Origin: a virus
IMG/VR virus record: IMGVR_UViG_3300046170_000148
Coordinates: 80,193-144,192 of that record
DNA: 64,000 bases
Strand: one strand, 5' to 3'
Part shown: positions 30,029 through 58,820 of the stretch, piece after piece
How the letters are laid out: every line of letters starts with the position of its first letter
Numbering within the stretch: the first letter of the stretch is position 1
The notes under the pieces: generated by a model
The model's input: only the letters and a program-made list of their open reading frames with translations
What the model was told of the DNA's origin: nothing
The model's database searches: none
Made by a program: the position numbers and the translations under genes

Positions 30029-30049
30029 TTCATACTCCTAATAATTAGT

Positions 30050-30367
30050 GGGGACTTCTGTTGCTAGGCGTCCCCTGACCCCGAAAACTATGCGGCTAGC
30101 GCATAATCCTCATGTGCGTAATTATCGTTTGCACTTACGAGTTTGTTGCGCTCTTGCGGATGGGATTGCCCGTCCGTCTCACAGGTGGCTTCCGCACCTA
30201 TTCTCCACATTCCTAATCAATACCTGTCGAACCTGTTTCGCCCCCGAAACTTTAGTGTGAGGGGTTTCTGCTCCTCTGCTACAACCCCTCACGGAACTCA
30301 CAGATTGGGCCTCTCCTTGAGAGAGATTGGTGGAGGCGGTGGGTATCGCACCCACGTCCAGTATACC
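30050..30367 (-). ncRNA. ssrA: Circularly permuted (two-piece) tmRNA
   Basis: In transcript order, the acceptor piece comes first: a T arm (GTGGG, loop TGCGATA, CCCAC), then CGCCTCC-A-CCA ending at 30328. Then an intervening segment with a 10-bp hairpin GTGAGGGGTT/AACCCCTCAC. The coding piece starts at 30245: GGGGGCG, then AAACAGGTTCGACAGG. The two acceptor strands pair over 7 bp with G3-U70, the alanine identity pair. The tag reading frame follows, then a GGGGAC/GTCCCC hairpin at 30050-30075. This 3'-before-5' order is the permuted form of alphaproteobacteria and cyanobacteria. Confidence 0.9.
30088..30132 (-). other. tmRNA proteolysis-tag reading frame
   Basis: Resume codon GCA at 30132-30130; reads ANDNYAHEDYALAA then TAG. 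The ALAA end is the standard signal for ClpXP-type proteases, and the ANDN start is alphaproteobacterial in style. Confidence 0.88.
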
Positions 30368-30393
30368 TTTTGGTTTGCTTCAACGAATACCCT

Positions 30394-30401
30394 TATTTAT
30401 A
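30394..30401 (-). promoter_or_regulatory. T4-type late promoter before the tmRNA
   Basis: TATAAATA on the minus strand, 27 bases before the acceptor piece, overlapping the stop of the 66-residue gene. It suggests late synthesis of the tmRNA, though read-through from 31018 is also possible. Confidence 0.55.
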
Positions 30402-30597
30402 CTCCAAGAATATTTCCTGCTTTTCCAATATCAAGAGTGCCACCATTCCGCATGTGTTCCTCTACTTGTTCAAAGTAGAATGCAGCGTCTTCGTGACCAT
30501 ACTCCTGAAGAACGTCCTTACACGCCTTGAAGAATAACATTGTCTTCATCAGATTACCGTCACCCATAGGTTTAGATTTTTTGCCAGACCGTTGCAT
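30397..30597 (-). CDS. Small conserved phage protein, 66 aa
   Basis: Reads MQRSGKKSKPMGDGNLMKTM, then LFFKACKDVLQEYGHEDAAF. Helical with a basic start. The ATG overlaps the stop of the upstream gene (TAATG type). Function unknown. Confidence 0.5.
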   Translation of the reverse strand: MQRSGKKSKPMGDGNLMKTMLFFKACKDVLQEYGHEDAAFYFEQVEEHMRNGGTLDIGKAGNILGV

Positions 30598-52400: not shown

Positions 52401-53458
52401 TACACAATCTCCATTGTCTGTGCTTCCATCATAAGGTCAGATATCTCTTTCTTAATCCTACCCTTATCTAGGTCTGTATTAACAGCATCAATATAATTAT
52501 ACACGATTGTTTCAGTATCGTCAAGCGAAATCTCTTCGTCCCCGACATTTTCTCCGATGAACTCTTTGAAGTCCTCTTGAATTTTCAGTTCGTGTATCTT
52601 CTGAGCCTGCACACGGTCAATGAACCGTTCAAACTCATAGGGGTCACCCTTGTTGGTGACAATGACCTTGACGAACTTGTTGTCCAAATACTTGAGGTCT
52701 TTGAACTTGTTCATGTTCTCGTGGTCGTAGTAAATCTTCTCATAGATTGTGATTGGGTTACGCACCGCAGTCACTTCTCTTGTTTCCGTATCAAGAATGT
52801 GGAAATACTTGTCATCGTTGCAGTCGTTCCAGAAGAACTCCATCTGACTTCCCAGATAGTGAATGTTACCCTGTGATGACTTGGCATGGAAGTGACCAGA
52901 GAGAACTGACTCAAAACGGTCAAACAGTTTTGGAGACATACCATCTTGACATGGCATACCCTTCTGCATTTCAAACCCTTGTAGTTCTAGGTGTGCGCCA
53001 ATGAAGTCTACCTTACAAGTCTTAATGAACTCTACGGACTCCTTTTCATTATCAGGACAAATCCACGGAACAAGCCCAATCTTCAAACCATCATAGTCCA
53101 TGACCTTTGGTTTGAGAATAAGATTGACCTCATTCATATAGTGACCCTGTAACTCTTTGAGAGCATTCAGTTCAGTCGTGTTCTTATAATACATGTCATG
53201 GTTACCGATGATGATGTCCATCGTGATACCATATTGACGCAAAGGTTCTAGAAAGATTTTGCGATTGTGTTGCAGTGCCTTGAAGTTGATTGTCTTACGA
53301 TTGTCGTAGTAATCACCCAAGTGCAGAATGTGTTTGATATCGTTCTCTAACAGATAGGGAAAGAACACGTCCCGATAGAACTGTTCTTGGTAATCCATAA
53401 AGATGTCAGAGGAGTTGCGAATACCGCAGTGCGTATCATTAAGAATCGCTATCTGCAT
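52400..53458 (-). CDS. 47: Recombination endonuclease subunit gp47 (Mre11-like)
   Basis: 352 residues. Phosphoesterase motifs in order: AILNDTHCGI, LHLGDYYDNR, IIIGNHDMYY, GAHLELQG, VLSGHFHAKS. Nuclease partner of gp46 in end processing. Part of a five-gene unit from the promoter at 53741-53769. Confidence 0.94.
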   Translation of the reverse strand: MQIAILNDTHCGIRNSSDIFMDYQEQFYRDVFFPYLLENDIKHILHLGDYYDNRKTINFKALQHNRKIFLEPLRQYGITMDIIIGNHDMYYKNTTELNALKELQGHYMNEVNLILKPKVMDYDGLKIGLVPWICPDNEKESVEFIKTCKVDFIGAHLELQGFEMQKGMPCQDGMSPKLFDRFESVLSGHFHAKSSQGNIHYLGSQMEFFWNDCNDDKYFHILDTETREVTAVRNPITIYEKIYYDHENMNKFKDLKYLDNKFVKVIVTNKGDPYEFERFIDRVQAQKIHELKIQEDFKEFIGENVGDEEISLDDTETIVYNYIDAVNTDLDKGRIKKEISDLMMEAQTMEIV

Positions 53459-53861: not shown

Positions 53862-53951
53862 TGGCGGAGGGTGAGAGATTCGAACTCTCGAAGGGCGTGA
53901 ACCCTTGCTGGTTTTCAAGACCAGTGCTTTCAACCACTCAGCCAACCCTCC
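53862..53951 (-). tRNA. tRNA-Ser (UGA)
   Basis: Minus-strand class II cloverleaf with long variable arm: acceptor GGAGGGT, anticodon stem-loop CTGGT-CTTGAAA-ACCAG, variable arm around AAGGGTTCACGCCCTT, T arm GAGAGTTCGAATCTCTC, encoded 3' CCA. Its 5' end touches the gp55 stop. Confidence 0.95.
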
Positions 53952-54538
53952 TAATCTGAAATAAAATCACTCAAGTCAGAGTCAACTTTGACCGTGCGTT
54001 TCTTGCGTTCCTTCTTGACAACCTCTTTCCACTCAGAGTCTTTCTCTTTGATTTCATCAATCCGAATACGGAGTTGGTCAACAAATGCTTGTGCGACAGA
54101 GGCAGACTGAGCATCACCCAACTCATTATCAAGGAAGTTCTCAATACCAGACTGGTTAATATACTTCATCTTGATATCTTGTTGTTTCTTTTCTTTCTCG
54201 ATGCGGCGTAGAAAAGCATACCATGAAATCTGTGTGAAGTATGCAAACGCATTTGGTTTACCTGTGCGTGTTGCTTTATCAATGTCATAGTTCTCGATTG
54301 CTTTGAGACAGTTCTCAACAGCATCCATCACCATCTCTTCACGATAGGTGTATCGAACAAAGTTAGACTTATGAGACAGACCTTCAGAGATTTTCAGAAA
54401 ACATTGTGCAATGTAATCCGTAACCTTTGGTAAGTCTTTTTCTCGTTCTCTTGCATGTTTTACTTTAGTGCAATAGTCAACAACAGCCTGAGAAAACTCT
54501 GCGTTATTGACATAGTGTGGTCTATCTTTTGGTTTCAT
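53951..54538 (-). CDS. 55: Late-transcription sigma factor gp55
   Basis: 195 residues. PHYVNNAEFSQAVVDYCTKV, YIAQCFLKISEGLSHKSNFV, YTYREEMVMDAVENCLKAIE and PNAFAYFTQISWYAFLRRIE correspond to the sigma2-like core of T4 gp55 that reads TATAAATA. The C-terminus (VKVDSDLSDFISD) ends with an acidic/hydrophobic clamp-binding-like tail. Explains the late motifs throughout the window. Confidence 0.93.
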   Translation of the reverse strand: MKPKDRPHYVNNAEFSQAVVDYCTKVKHAREREKDLPKVTDYIAQCFLKISEGLSHKSNFVRYTYREEMVMDAVENCLKAIENYDIDKATRTGKPNAFAYFTQISWYAFLRRIEKEKKQQDIKMKYINQSGIENFLDNELGDAQSASVAQAFVDQLRIRIDEIKEKDSEWKEVVKKERKKRTVKVDSDLSDFISD

Positions 54539-54601: not shown

Positions 54602-54630
54602 TTGACAAAACTTGTAATCCGTGTTATAAT
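54602..54630 (+). promoter_or_regulatory. Divergent plus-strand sigma70-type promoter
   Basis: Plus strand TTGACA, 17-base spacer, TATAAT, back to back with the gp55 promoter and reading antisense into the oxygenase gene at 54630-55214. No convincing plus-strand gene follows; the first ATG (54634) opens 32 codons without a ribosome site. Confidence 0.7.
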
Positions 54631-55214
54631 TAAGATGTCTTTTGGGAAGGGTTGGATACCACAGTTCCGGCGACACAATACCTGTGTCCTTCAAATTGTT
54701 TCGAAACTGTTTCGTGTATCATGTGACCTCTAAAAATAACAAGCATTCCATTCTCAACCTTTAATTCATAATCCATATTAGGAAAAATCAATCCTGAACA
54801 ATCTTCAGGAGGATTAATGTAATAAGTGAAAGCAAATGTTGCTGGCCAGTGGTCATGTGGCGTTGTAATTTCTCCACTATTATATCTTGTCCCCCACATC
54901 ACATTACAACTAAGGGTATCTATGTATGTATTATACCACCATTCATTATTGTAACGAAATACATGGTTAGGATGTTCAGTCTGTAAGTCATATGTAAAAT
55001 CTTGACAGGACTTGAGAACGAGTTGGGATAGTTTTTCGAATTCTGGATAAACCTCATGCATATTTCCTAATGTGCAATCAGCTTTCACATTAGTGGTATG
55101 ATTCATTGCATCACCCAACTCATCAATGCGATTCACTATTGATGAGTTCATATCTTCATCATCTAATGTCGTTACAAAGATATATTCATTATCATCATTA
55201 CGAAGAGTTAACAT
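54630..55214 (-). CDS. 2-oxoglutarate/Fe(II) oxygenase
   Basis: 194 residues. GEITTPHDHWPATFAFTYYI gives the first iron His/acid motif, PEDCSGLIFPNMDYELKVEN the barrel, VIFRGHMIHETVSKQFEGHR the distal His and 2OG-binding Arg. Matches the small hydroxylases typical of marine T4-like phages. Substrate unknown. Its 3' end lies opposite the divergent promoter. Confidence 0.7.
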   Translation of the reverse strand: MLTLRNDDNEYIFVTTLDDEDMNSSIVNRIDELGDAMNHTTNVKADCTLGNMHEVYPEFEKLSQLVLKSCQDFTYDLQTEHPNHVFRYNNEWWYNTYIDTLSCNVMWGTRYNSGEITTPHDHWPATFAFTYYINPPEDCSGLIFPNMDYELKVENGMLVIFRGHMIHETVSKQFEGHRYCVAGTVVSNPSQKTS

Positions 55215-55703
55215 TTAGTGTAGAGTCCTCTTGGACGGGTCAAACTGTATAATATTATCATCGGAGTCACCCGAAATTTTTTCAACATACTCTTCAAGTT
55301 TACTGGCTTCTTCCAATACTTGTCGTGTCATCTTATTTACACTATCAATATCTTCGAAGGGTTCGTCTCCCCGACTCTGTAGATATTCTTTGTTGCGTTG
55401 TTCCCACATCTTTGCCATATCATCTACCGCTTCATCATACTGTGAGATAAGTGACACAGGCGGTTGTGCAATACCAATAACATGATTGCCATTGAGGACT
55501 AGAAGGTCATCAGGATTTTCTTGATAGACCATCCACGGACGGAACGAGTAGTAACGAACACCAGTCTCCATTTCGCCCATCACAAGTTTCATGGCCTTCC
55601 TCACGACAAGTTCTAGTTCTTCTTCGTTATTCCATTGAATTACTTCACAGACGATTTCTTCACCTGATGCGAGTTTGAACTGTCTTACTTCGTTTTCTGC
55701 CAT
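55215..55703 (-). CDS. Conserved phage protein with LSm-like N-terminus, 162 aa
   Basis: VRQFKLASGEEIVCEVIQWN, then VVRKAMKLVMGE and YYSFRPWMVYQENPDDLLVL form a small beta-barrel-like domain of LSm character (bent strands around G-E-E-I). A helical acidic tail follows. The stop abuts the oxygenase ATG. A late promoter precedes it. Function unknown. Confidence 0.55.
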   Translation of the reverse strand: MAENEVRQFKLASGEEIVCEVIQWNNEEELELVVRKAMKLVMGEMETGVRYYSFRPWMVYQENPDDLLVLNGNHVIGIAQPPVSLISQYDEAVDDMAKMWEQRNKEYLQSRGDEPFEDIDSVNKMTRQVLEEASKLEEYVEKISGDSDDNIIQFDPSKRTLH

Positions 55704-55724: not shown

Positions 55725-57339
55725 TTATTTATACGAGAGTTTACTTCTTTTATATTCTTCTATAAATTCATCTCGTATTCGTAAATTAGCTCGTTTTTTT
55801 GCGGGTGATTTATAATAATCTTTAACACCACTTATATCACCATTTTTATATTCAGTCATCCAAGCATTAGCACCCTCAAAACAATATGTTGAATCTATTT
55901 TCTTCTCAGCTCTTTCACTGATGAAATCTCTACACCAATCAATAGCATCAACCCAACCATAATCACCACTAGGGTGAATCCAAGAATTCATATCAACTTG
56001 AAAATTATTATTCTGGTTTTGTTGTCTCTGTCTCTCCACCTCTTCTAATATAGCTTTGAGAGATGGAGTTAATGTATTATACGATGGGTTCTCTTCGAAT
56101 GTGTAACCTATGTTAACAAAATCATCTGTGATACTACCATCAAGTTTGTCGAGGCCCATCACCTGTTCCATACGCTTGTTGTAAAAATAATGGTAGATAT
56201 GCAACAGTATTATCTTTCCAATATGTATTTAACCACTCCTTACCATCATCTAGAGTTTCAAAAGACTCATGTGGAAGACCACAAATCATGGTCATAGAAC
56301 CTTCATAAAAATACGGACTTTTTTCCCAGAAGTAATCCTGAATCTCCAGAAGACCATCTTTCATCTTATCGGGATGCATACCCTTACCCATAGTCTTAGC
56401 CGACTCGTGATTGAAGGATTCTACACCATAACTATGTGAGGTAAATCCAGCATCAATCATATCGTCCCATGTCTCTTTACCATGATGGATAAGAAGGTCT
56501 GCTCGAGCGTAACCGTTAAGTTGAGGTTGGAAGTTCAATTTCCGAACAGCATCACCAACCATTTTCATTTTATCTTTACTATCGTTCACCGTATCGTCGG
56601 TGATATAGTAACTTTCAATTCCCCAACGTTCATAGTTTTCTTTTAATTCATCATGAACACTTTCCTCATCCCTCATCATATTGCCTTTAAGACCTAGTAG
56701 AGGAAAGCTACAATACTTACATTTGAAACGACAACCTCGACCCAATTCGATATTTAGAGTTTCGTATGGTTGAATGAAATCCCGTTCCTCGTAAGAAATA
56801 TTCGCATCTCTCTTTGGGTAACATGGATAGTCTTTTGTCGTATCAATAATCTTAGTTCCAAGTCGGTCGAGTGTAGTTTCTTTGGGTGGTTCTCCTTGAC
56901 CCATCAAATACTTCAATACAGCATCTATAGCATACTCACCATTACCGGCAATGAAATAATCTGCATTTACACATGTGATTGCATAGCCCTTCACACCACC
57001 AGAAATTACTTTAACCCACGGATATTTTTTTCTCACATAATCAAACAATTTATTAATGTTCTCAACTGCGTCTAGTTGAGCATAGAAAAGTAAACTTACA
57101 CCGATGAATACTGTATCCTTAGTAATTCTCTTATCGACATAATCAGTCAATTCATCATATGAAAATTTCCAAAGGTAATCAAGACATTCGATGTCCCATC
57201 CTTGTTTTCTTAGGTGAGTTGCGATTCTGTGATTTCCAAAAGAACGATAGTAATCGGGTTCTCCATAAACTCTTAGTCCAGTGCTATTTTGTTCGAAGAA
57301 AGAGGTGACCTTAAACCCACCAAATAATAGTCCATGCAT
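55725..57339 (-). CDS. B12-binding-type radical SAM enzyme, frameshifted
   Basis: About 537 residues. An N-terminal Rossmann-like part (RKKYPWVKVISGGVKGYAIT, DYFIAGNGEYAIDAVLKYL) resembles the cobalamin-binding domain. NIELGRGCRFKCKYCSFPLL holds the CxxxCxxC iron-sulfur motif, then SYYITDDTVNDSKDKM and YGVESFNHESAKTMGKGM. The frame ends DGPRQT. Removing one base of the CCC at 56155-56157 joins GLDKLDGSITDDFVNIGYTF. Substrate unknown. Stop/start overlaps uvsW. Confidence 0.75.
55726..55733 (-). promoter_or_regulatory. T4-type late promoter
   Basis: TATAAATA on the minus strand, formed by the stop region of the radical SAM gene, 23 bases before the ATG at 55703. Confidence 0.65.
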
Positions 57340-58820
57340 TATTTCAAGTCTACTTTATAAATCTTATGAGGGAACTGTTCTTTGGTATATATCTTAATTC
57401 TTTCTGCGCTGTGTCGTAGGGTAAAGTTCTTGTGTGACCTAATGTGTAAGTCATCTGCGATATCGTAGAGTTGTGTGACCGACCCGTCATCTGACTGACG
57501 CAAGCCCCGTCCTATCGATTGCAGAACCTTGACCTGAGACTTACTAGGACTAGCAAAGACAATGTTATGCAGATTCCTAATGTTGATGCCTGTGCTAAAA
57601 GTGCCAAGTGATGCGACGATGATAGCATTTTTCTGTTTCTCCACGATGCCGCGAATCTGTTCGCGGTCAGTTGCATCCACCTCACCCGACACATAGAAAA
57701 TCTTGCGACCTTCCTCTGCCTTGTCTCTCATCATGTCAAAGAGAATCTTACCATGTTTCTCTACGAACTGAAAGAGAACCAGAGTGTTACCTGTCTGGTC
57801 AAGTGCGAGATTGGTGATTAGTTTATTACGTTTCTCATTGCGAACAATGTAGTCAATCTCTTCCTGATAGGTTGCGTCCTTCAACATATGACATACATCA
57901 TTGTGATACCGCAACAACAGGACAGATATATTTAGTTTCGCAAGCGTTCCCTTCTCCTGTAAATCCCGTGTCATAGTGACACGTTTGGTTGGCCCGAACA
58001 GACCCTCCAATACCAGTTTGTTGGTTTCAGTGCCGTCAAGCGTGCCAGTGGTGCCGAAACGGTATTCTGCGTTGACACACTTGTTCATGATACCTGACAG
58101 GGACTTTGCCTTGAACAAATGCACCTCATCTCCAAATACGCAACCGAAGTTTTCGAACCATTCCTTCGGGAACTTGTAGATAGATTGCCACGTTGAGATG
58201 ACGATTTGTTTGTCGGTGGTCTTGTCCTTACCAGAATAAATCTTGTGACATAGGTCGGGGTCAAATCCGTAGTCGGCAAAGTCCTTGTGCATCTGTTCTA
58301 CCAGACTCGTTGTAGGAACAACAATAAGAATCTGTTTATCATAGTTGTCGATATACCAACGCATAAGATTATAGATGATGAATGACTTACCCGAACCTGT
58401 GGGCGACAGGAGAACCGCTCGTTTCTTTTCGATGCCGTGAGTGACCGCATCATACTGATAGTCACGCAACTCAAAGGGCATCTCTAGTTCACTCTGGAAC
58501 TTTACAAGGTTCTGGTGTTGGATATGGTTTGTTTGTGCGGGGTGTCCGTAGTCCGTCTCCTGTAGTTGGAGAGGATACATGCGGTCAGAACAAAACTTCT
58601 TCAGATGGTCATAGAGACCAACGTTCAGTTCGCGAGTGACCTGATTGAATAGTTTGATTTTACCGTCCCACTTGCGTGACTTATACATCGGCATAAACTT
58701 ATAGCCGGGGACGAAGAATGAAAAGTAGTCGCGTAGTTCTGGTAGTTGATGTGCTTCACAGTCAACCAACATCATAGAATGGTCTTTAAGACCGACAGTT
58801 ATAGTATTGGGAAGAGACAT
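57339..58820 (-). CDS. uvsW: Recombination helicase UvsW
   Basis: 493 residues. An N-terminal domain (FFVPGYKFMPMYKSRKWDGK) then SF2 helicase motifs: LLSPTGSGKSFIIYNLM (I), CVFGDEVHLFKAKS (II, DEVH), RFGTTGTLDG (III), SIGRGLRQSDDGS (VI). Unwinds R-loops and branched recombination intermediates in the switch to recombination-dependent replication. Abuts uvsY. Confidence 0.94.
   Translation of the reverse strand: MSLPNTITVGLKDHSMMLVDCEAHQLPELRDYFSFFVPGYKFMPMYKSRKWDGKIKLFNQVTRELNVGLYDHLKKFCSDRMYPLQLQETDYGHPAQTNHIQHQNLVKFQSELEMPFELRDYQYDAVTHGIEKKRAVLLSPTGSGKSFIIYNLMRWYIDNYDKQILIVVPTTSLVEQMHKDFADYGFDPDLCHKIYSGKDKTTDKQIVISTWQSIYKFPKEWFENFGCVFGDEVHLFKAKSLSGIMNKCVNAEYRFGTTGTLDGTETNKLVLEGLFGPTKRVTMTRDLQEKGTLAKLNISVLLLRYHNDVCHMLKDATYQEEIDYIVRNEKRNKLITNLALDQTGNTLVLFQFVEKHGKILFDMMRDKAEEGRKIFYVSGEVDATDREQIRGIVEKQKNAIIVASLGTFSTGINIRNLHNIVFASPSKSQVKVLQSIGRGLRQSDDGSVTQLYDIADDLHIRSHKNFTLRHSAERIKIYTKEQFPHKIYKVDLK

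Follow-up and report, generated by a model that had tools for sequence, protein, structure and literature searches.

A strong early-type promoter that precedes no gene and points into genes of the other strand raises the question of what it is for. Such a promoter, here called R, lies next to gp55, the gene of the late sigma factor, in the 64,000-nucleotide stretch of marine-phage DNA from an IMG/VR virus record that we analysed (the window). The original prediction, made from the window alone, proposed that an RNA from R restrains two late genes, encoding an oxygenase and an LSm-like protein, until gp55 acts. We therefore compared the locus with its counterparts in related phages.

The promoter pair upstream of gp55

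Much of what had been read from the window holds. R (TTGACAAAACTTGTAATCCGTGTTATAAT) is an exact match to TTGACA-N17-TATAAT, scoring 12/12 at a 17-bp spacing, as fits a sigma70-type promoter with hexamers 16–18 bp apart. It is the only plus-strand copy among the six exact TTGACA-N15-19-TATAAT sites of the window, where 0.11 are expected by chance and the other five lie on the minus strand; the whole 144-kb record has seven consensus sites at N16-18, one of them on the plus strand. R stands back to back with the gp55 promoter, F, with 13 bp between the two −35 boxes, and the two promoters fire apart. Base 54630 is the last base of both the −10 box of R and the oxygenase stop codon, so the predicted start falls within the oxygenase reading frame and R points into that gene, as proposed. 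No convincing plus-strand gene was found behind it, and a scan of the window for intrinsic terminators listed none on the plus strand between 54637 and 55700. The coordinates are collected in Table 1.

Table 1. Features of the window around R, with strand and basis of assignment.
Feature	Position	Strand	Basis
Antisense promoter R: −35 TTGACA 54602-54607, 17-bp spacer, −10 TATAAT 54625-54630	54602-54630	+	Exact consensus; conserved in relatives
gp55 promoter F, TTGACA-N17-TATAAT, divergent from R	54588-54560	-	Consensus scan
Start-site palindrome AAG-ATGT-CTT, predicted +1 at G54637; weak version of the covarying palindrome of relatives	54632-54641	+	Sequence; covariation across relatives
Purine run GGGAAGGG (54644-54651) and GGATACC, end of the conserved stretch	54644-54660	+	Sequence; conservation profile
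gp55, late sigma factor	53951-54538	-	phrog_234, E 2.5e-52
2OG-Fe(II) oxygenase, an insert separating the LSm-like gene from R; stop codon overlaps the −10 box of R	54630-55214	-	PF13759, phrog_81; comparison with other loci
LSm-like gene, usual neighbour of R	55215-55703	-	phrog_527/471; AlphaFold pLDDT 86.9; Foldseek best match 3BY7
Late-promoter box TATAAATA upstream of the LSm-like gene	55726-55733	-	Sequence; rare in relatives
UvsW helicase, upstream module of the order uvsY-uvsW-LSm-R-gp55-47-46	57339-58820	-	PF21241, phrog_16; synteny

Conservation of R among relatives

Relatives were gathered with three gp55 queries against viral contigs, together with named phages. The loci were chosen by gp55 similarity and are mutually related; covariation and the conservation profile were computed on non-redundant subsets. 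We call loci SAR11-type or cyanophage-type by the similarity of their gp55 to that of HTVC008M or Syn1, respectively, which is not a host assignment for metagenomic contigs. The gene order uvsY-uvsW-LSm-gap-gp55-47-46 is common to the Kyanoviridae.

In all 182 loci with an uninterrupted gap between LSm and gp55, R scores at least 10/12, compared with 3.8% of dinucleotide shuffles, and it reaches at least 11 in 126 of them, compared with 0.19% of shuffles. R also scores at least 10 in all 11 named isolates (Syn1, Syn9, S-RSM4, P-SSM4, S-RIM2, Syn33, S-PRM1, MED4-213, S-SRM01, ACG-2014a and HTVC008M). Both counts accept TTGACA as the only −35 box; the variants TGTACA and TTTACA were admitted elsewhere after inspection of the data. 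A looser scan with inserts allowed, 15–19-bp spacers and three −35 variants detects R in 230 of 231 loci, a figure partly inflated by long intervals. R is found in phage C48C1 as well, and Stenotrophomonas phage DLP6 carries it as a 12/12 promoter of the TTTACA type with a palindrome of five to six bp (TCAGG-TGTCG-CCTGA). Within part of the window's group, the −35 box has shifted to TGTACA or TTTACA in both R and F of one contig. R is absent from a few phages with an LSm–gp55 gap of 11–17 nt (X1, Yut3). The divergent arrangement thus recurs in related phages, where the original prediction had suggested looking for it. R is real and occupies the same place in essentially all cyanophage and SAR11-phage relatives; a chance match is ruled out by the expected number of sites in the window and by the shuffle controls in the relatives.

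The genes on either side of R vary. Between LSm and R, the oxygenase is inserted in the window and in loci L002 and L010, and unknown genes of 210–222 aa in L023, L025, L029, L032, L038, L048, L050 and others. Between R and gp55 there is a cytidylyltransferase-like gene (PF01467) in L013-L022, L036, L040 and L044, and short genes in L203, L206 and L214. L016 and L019 have inserts on both sides. R is retained whichever side the insert lands on, and the gene opposite R may be LSm, the oxygenase, one of the 210–222 aa unknowns or a divergent gene. Loss of R where the cytidylyltransferase-like gene adjoins gp55 was ruled out, R being found further upstream. The LSm–gp55 junction is a hotspot that has taken up cassette genes to one or the other side of R (L013-L022, L033, L036, L040, L068, L203 and others), among them 2OG oxygenases, CTP_transf_like enzymes and the 210–222 aa unknowns.

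R is equally independent of F. Among SAR11-type loci, R scores at least 11 in 72 of 80, whereas F does so in only 28 and stays below 10 in 38. L265 and L266 have a 48-nt LSm–gp55 gap with an R-like site (TTGACA-17-TAGACT) and the palindrome GGCGG-TGTT-CCGTT, and F was not found in that gap. We therefore rejected the idea that R is a by-product of the gp55 promoter, since in many SAR11-type loci R is the stronger of the two, and R also occurs where F is lacking. Its persistence across inserts likewise indicates that R is not bound to one antisense target.

These comparisons bear on the purpose that had been proposed for R. The late promoter thought to drive the oxygenase and LSm-like genes has its counterpart in the window, where the late box precedes the LSm-like gene, but this box occurs upstream of LSm in only 3/66, 0/80 and 2/76 loci of the three groups. 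Given this rarity, late control of LSm does not qualify as the conserved partner of R. Restraint of the oxygenase and LSm-like genes as the purpose of R is not borne out either: the oxygenase occurs in few relatives, and the opposite gene changes while R stays. The original prediction is partly supported, in that a strong early-type promoter is directed against the upstream genes; its choice of target is not.

The start-site palindrome and the sequence behind it

Directly 3' of the −10 box of R, the relatives carry a palindrome centred on the predicted start base, and its arms covary (AACGG-TGT-CCGTT, GGACT-ATGT-AGTCC, AGGC-ATGT-GCCT, AACCT-TGTAG-AGGTT, CCGG-TATGT-CCGG). We counted covariation with a script, since the palindrome falls into several registers in MAFFT alignment A2. 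Stem scores average 9.47 across 76 non-redundant elements, compared with 4.86 (sd 0.40) when the right halves are swapped between loci (z = 11.4), and the covariation appears in each group (z of 7.7 for SAR11-type, 4.4 for cyanophage-type and 5.8 for the window's group). The centre reads TGT in 30/32 SAR11-type and 11/12 cyanophage-type elements and in 2/33 of the window's group. The palindrome is absent from gp55 promoters, with a stem score of 3.8, and from most other promoters; other strong promoters score 2.7 in the window's record and 4.6 in Syn9. To our knowledge, no promoter has been described in which the start base is the centre of a strongly covarying palindrome.

Further downstream, nucleotides 15–34 after the −10 box have an average purine content of 0.60 in the relatives, with G at 0.28 and C at 0.13. 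In the conservation profile, computed from the non-redundant set, information content declines to background level some 25 nt beyond the start of R. The selected stretch spans about 60 bp and comprises promoter, palindrome and purine run.

R as a general class of promoters was rejected: HTVC008M contains one good match to the element (25.0 bits; the next reaches 8.5), Syn9 has R plus one further match, and in the window's record R is accompanied by a single look-alike, which lies within a gene. At Syn9 52741-52800 (+) (L253 2741-2800), the R leader of this phage recurs as a second copy (AACACTGCCAGGGTTGATAAGGGC) and continues directly into the ATG of the early-region gene gp88; as the leader abuts this start codon (AAGGGC-ATG), its purine run resembles a Shine-Dalgarno site. 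At G000:C1:73827 (-), which is L090 ~13827, a second 12/12 promoter, with a sequence nearly identical to the R leader (TAAG..CTTTCTTGGGAAGGTTGGGATAC) behind it, lies within a 282-aa gene without a Pfam match; this may be a chance resemblance or a real copy.

On the strand read from R, terminators are not conserved: a terminator-like site of any kind occurs within 600 nt in 34/221 loci, and a short RNA ended by a conserved terminator was rejected on this ground. A folded leader was discarded as well, since the R RNA of the window is not more stable than its shuffles (z of 0.17 and −0.42), and so was a known structured RNA, as no Rfam family matches at R. A conserved antisense body was rejected because LSm is under no broad extra constraint at its synonymous sites, the exception being the last four codons in cyanophages (0.80).

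Possible roles of R and the genes around it

As judged from sequence comparison, R is a conserved cis element composed of a predicted host-sigma70 promoter and the first ~25 bases of its presumed transcript, located at the border between uvsY-uvsW-LSm and gp55-47-46 and pointing back into uvsY-uvsW-LSm. The comparison establishes the promoter as a sequence element, its near-universality, the covarying palindrome, the purine run and the indifference to flanking genes. R is probably a working control element, hitherto undescribed, with a job that we infer from these properties. With somewhat less than even confidence, we favour the reading that R loads sigma70 polymerase head-on against read-through into gp55-47-46 and would act as an early gate on the late sigma gene. 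Early in infection, host RNA polymerase would be loaded at R, facing transcripts from uvsW-LSm and the inserted genes, and collision at R would stop read-through into gp55. The palindrome and the purine-rich start may hold polymerase near the promoter and strengthen the block; this role of the palindrome is a guess, none of the systems cited below having one, and a hairpin in the open non-template strand as the means is speculation. Late in infection, gp55 would take over the polymerase, R would weaken, and read-through and late expression would rise, making the switch self-reinforcing. Any antisense RNA made against the upstream genes would then be incidental or a secondary effect.

Intrinsic terminators in the gene direction are few in the LSm–gp55 gaps (4/69, 7/80 and 2/82; 13/231 in total), which makes another device at the module border plausible. 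Where F is weak or absent, as in many SAR11-type loci and in L265 and L266, gp55 presumably depends on read-through, which R would oppose; in most loci of the window's group and of cyanophages F is strong, and gp55 need not rely on read-through there. Selection that ends near +25 without a conserved terminator on the R strand would be expected if the act of initiation is what matters. It is possible, though doubtful, that R represents a new class of cis elements, in which a promoter with a covarying start-base palindrome has long been kept at the late-sigma gate of T4-superfamily phages and acts by holding or loading polymerase rather than through its RNA.

The RNA itself might instead be the active part. 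An early R RNA, being antisense to the genes that precede gp55 (LSm, inserts, perhaps uvsW), could lower their expression by pairing or decay until late infection. R is always aimed into genes of the other strand, antisense complementarity requires no conserved sequence, a long RNA is possible because no terminator is conserved within 600 nt, and the antisense RNA CfrI has been described in cyanophage S-PM2 (PMC2984593, PMC5931967). Yet the opposite gene differs between phages, the late box is rare, the selected part is the promoter and start rather than the body, and the window RNA is not unusually folded; we consider such silencing unlikely. A short R RNA acting in trans, or bound by the adjoining Sm-like protein, would agree with the co-occurrence of R and the LSm gene in nearly all loci, the Sm fold predicted for that protein and the purine-rich leader. 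However, neither a terminator nor a fold is conserved, as would be expected of a trans-acting small RNA, no Rfam family matches, conservation ends near +25, and the palindrome begins upstream of the predicted start, so that about half of it would be outside the RNA, which makes a small regulatory RNA improbable.

There is also a small chance that R serves replication, its RNA forming an R-loop over the purine-rich start and priming DNA synthesis, while the displaced strand folds at the palindrome. The origins of T4 rely on transcripts from promoters, and UvsW unwinds the R-loops at these origins. Like the transcript-primed origins of T4, e.g., near uvsY, R is a promoter that adjoins recombination genes and has no gene of its own. 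It is conserved across hosts beside uvsY/uvsW and insensitive to its neighbour genes, and its purine-rich start could favour an R-loop. Against this, T4 has a different gene order at gp55, and GC skew has no turning point at R in Syn9 (R at 123.7 kb, detrended minimum of the cumulative skew near 102 kb) or in the window's record, although skew is a weak test in recombination-replicating phages and a poor proxy in T4-like ones. A single theta origin has been predicted for Syn9, with no position given (PMC2984593). Very improbable, in our view, is that R is the early promoter of a lost or unrecognised divergent gene with the purine run as its Shine-Dalgarno site. L068 does have an ATG frame directly after the leader, a gene that R itself would transcribe, and the leader copy elsewhere in Syn9 runs into gp88, but nearly all loci lack a start codon or frame, and still cyanophages, SAR11-type phages and DLP6 have retained the element.

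The proposed head-on loading of polymerase at R has partial parallels. R shares hexamers, spacing and expected use by unmodified host polymerase with the early sigma70-type promoters of T4-like cyanophages (PMC2984593), but differs from them in having no downstream gene, in its conserved palindrome and purine run, and in facing the neighbouring module. CfrI, from the psbA region of S-PM2, is a non-coding antisense transcription unit of a Kyanoviridae phage, as R would be, and the predicted start of R lies in the oxygenase frame of the window and antisense to LSm in most relatives; CfrI, however, belongs to another locus and is tied to a homing endonuclease and psbA, whereas R is found across the family. 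At helD/pps of B. subtilis, head-on antisense promoters repress the sense promoter via polymerase supply and respond to polymerase inhibition (PMC12802891). R resembles them as a strong antisense promoter that would repress transcription running the other way and would react to the state of the polymerase, but the helD/pps-type promoters stand 45–100 bp apart and fire at each other, whereas R and F, so closely spaced, fire away, the opposed transcription would come from further upstream, and R has the start-site palindrome. Interference by collision is inferred to be common in both E. coli and cyanobacteria (PMC10349824). Sense and antisense reads have been counted in strand-specific RNA-seq of phage P-HM2 infecting Prochlorococcus MED4 (PMC5082946). 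General statements of antisense transcription in Kyanoviridae exist, and the literature on antisense transcription at gp55 in cyanophages yielded nothing on the R element, of which the Syn9 transcriptome paper may hold an earlier report; the element appears to be undescribed. If R is a gate, it would be a missing piece of early–late control in some of the most abundant marine viruses, with timing unlike that of T4; the reviewed cyanomyoviruses lack motA and asiA (PMC2984593).

The LSm-like gene is labelled 'methylamine utilization' in cyanophage records. Its predicted structure (pLDDT 86.9) matches the Sm/LSm-like protein 3BY7 with an E-value of 8e-6 and a TM-score of 0.78–0.84 by target length, and has a long C-terminal helical part. 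The protein often ends in Leu/Val-His (TLH, TVH, ALH), a feature kept from cyanophages to DLP6, Yut3 and X1. In the window, uvsW and the LSm-like gene are separated by an insertion at 55725-57339, which comprises a radical SAM/B12-binding gene and an unknown gene that overlaps it. Elsewhere in the window, a permuted tmRNA gene of alphaproteobacterial type (30047-30438, minus strand; Rfam RF01849, 101 bits; RF04321; tag ANDNYAHEDYALAA) adjoins tRNA-Pro and hints at an alphaproteobacterial host for this phage.
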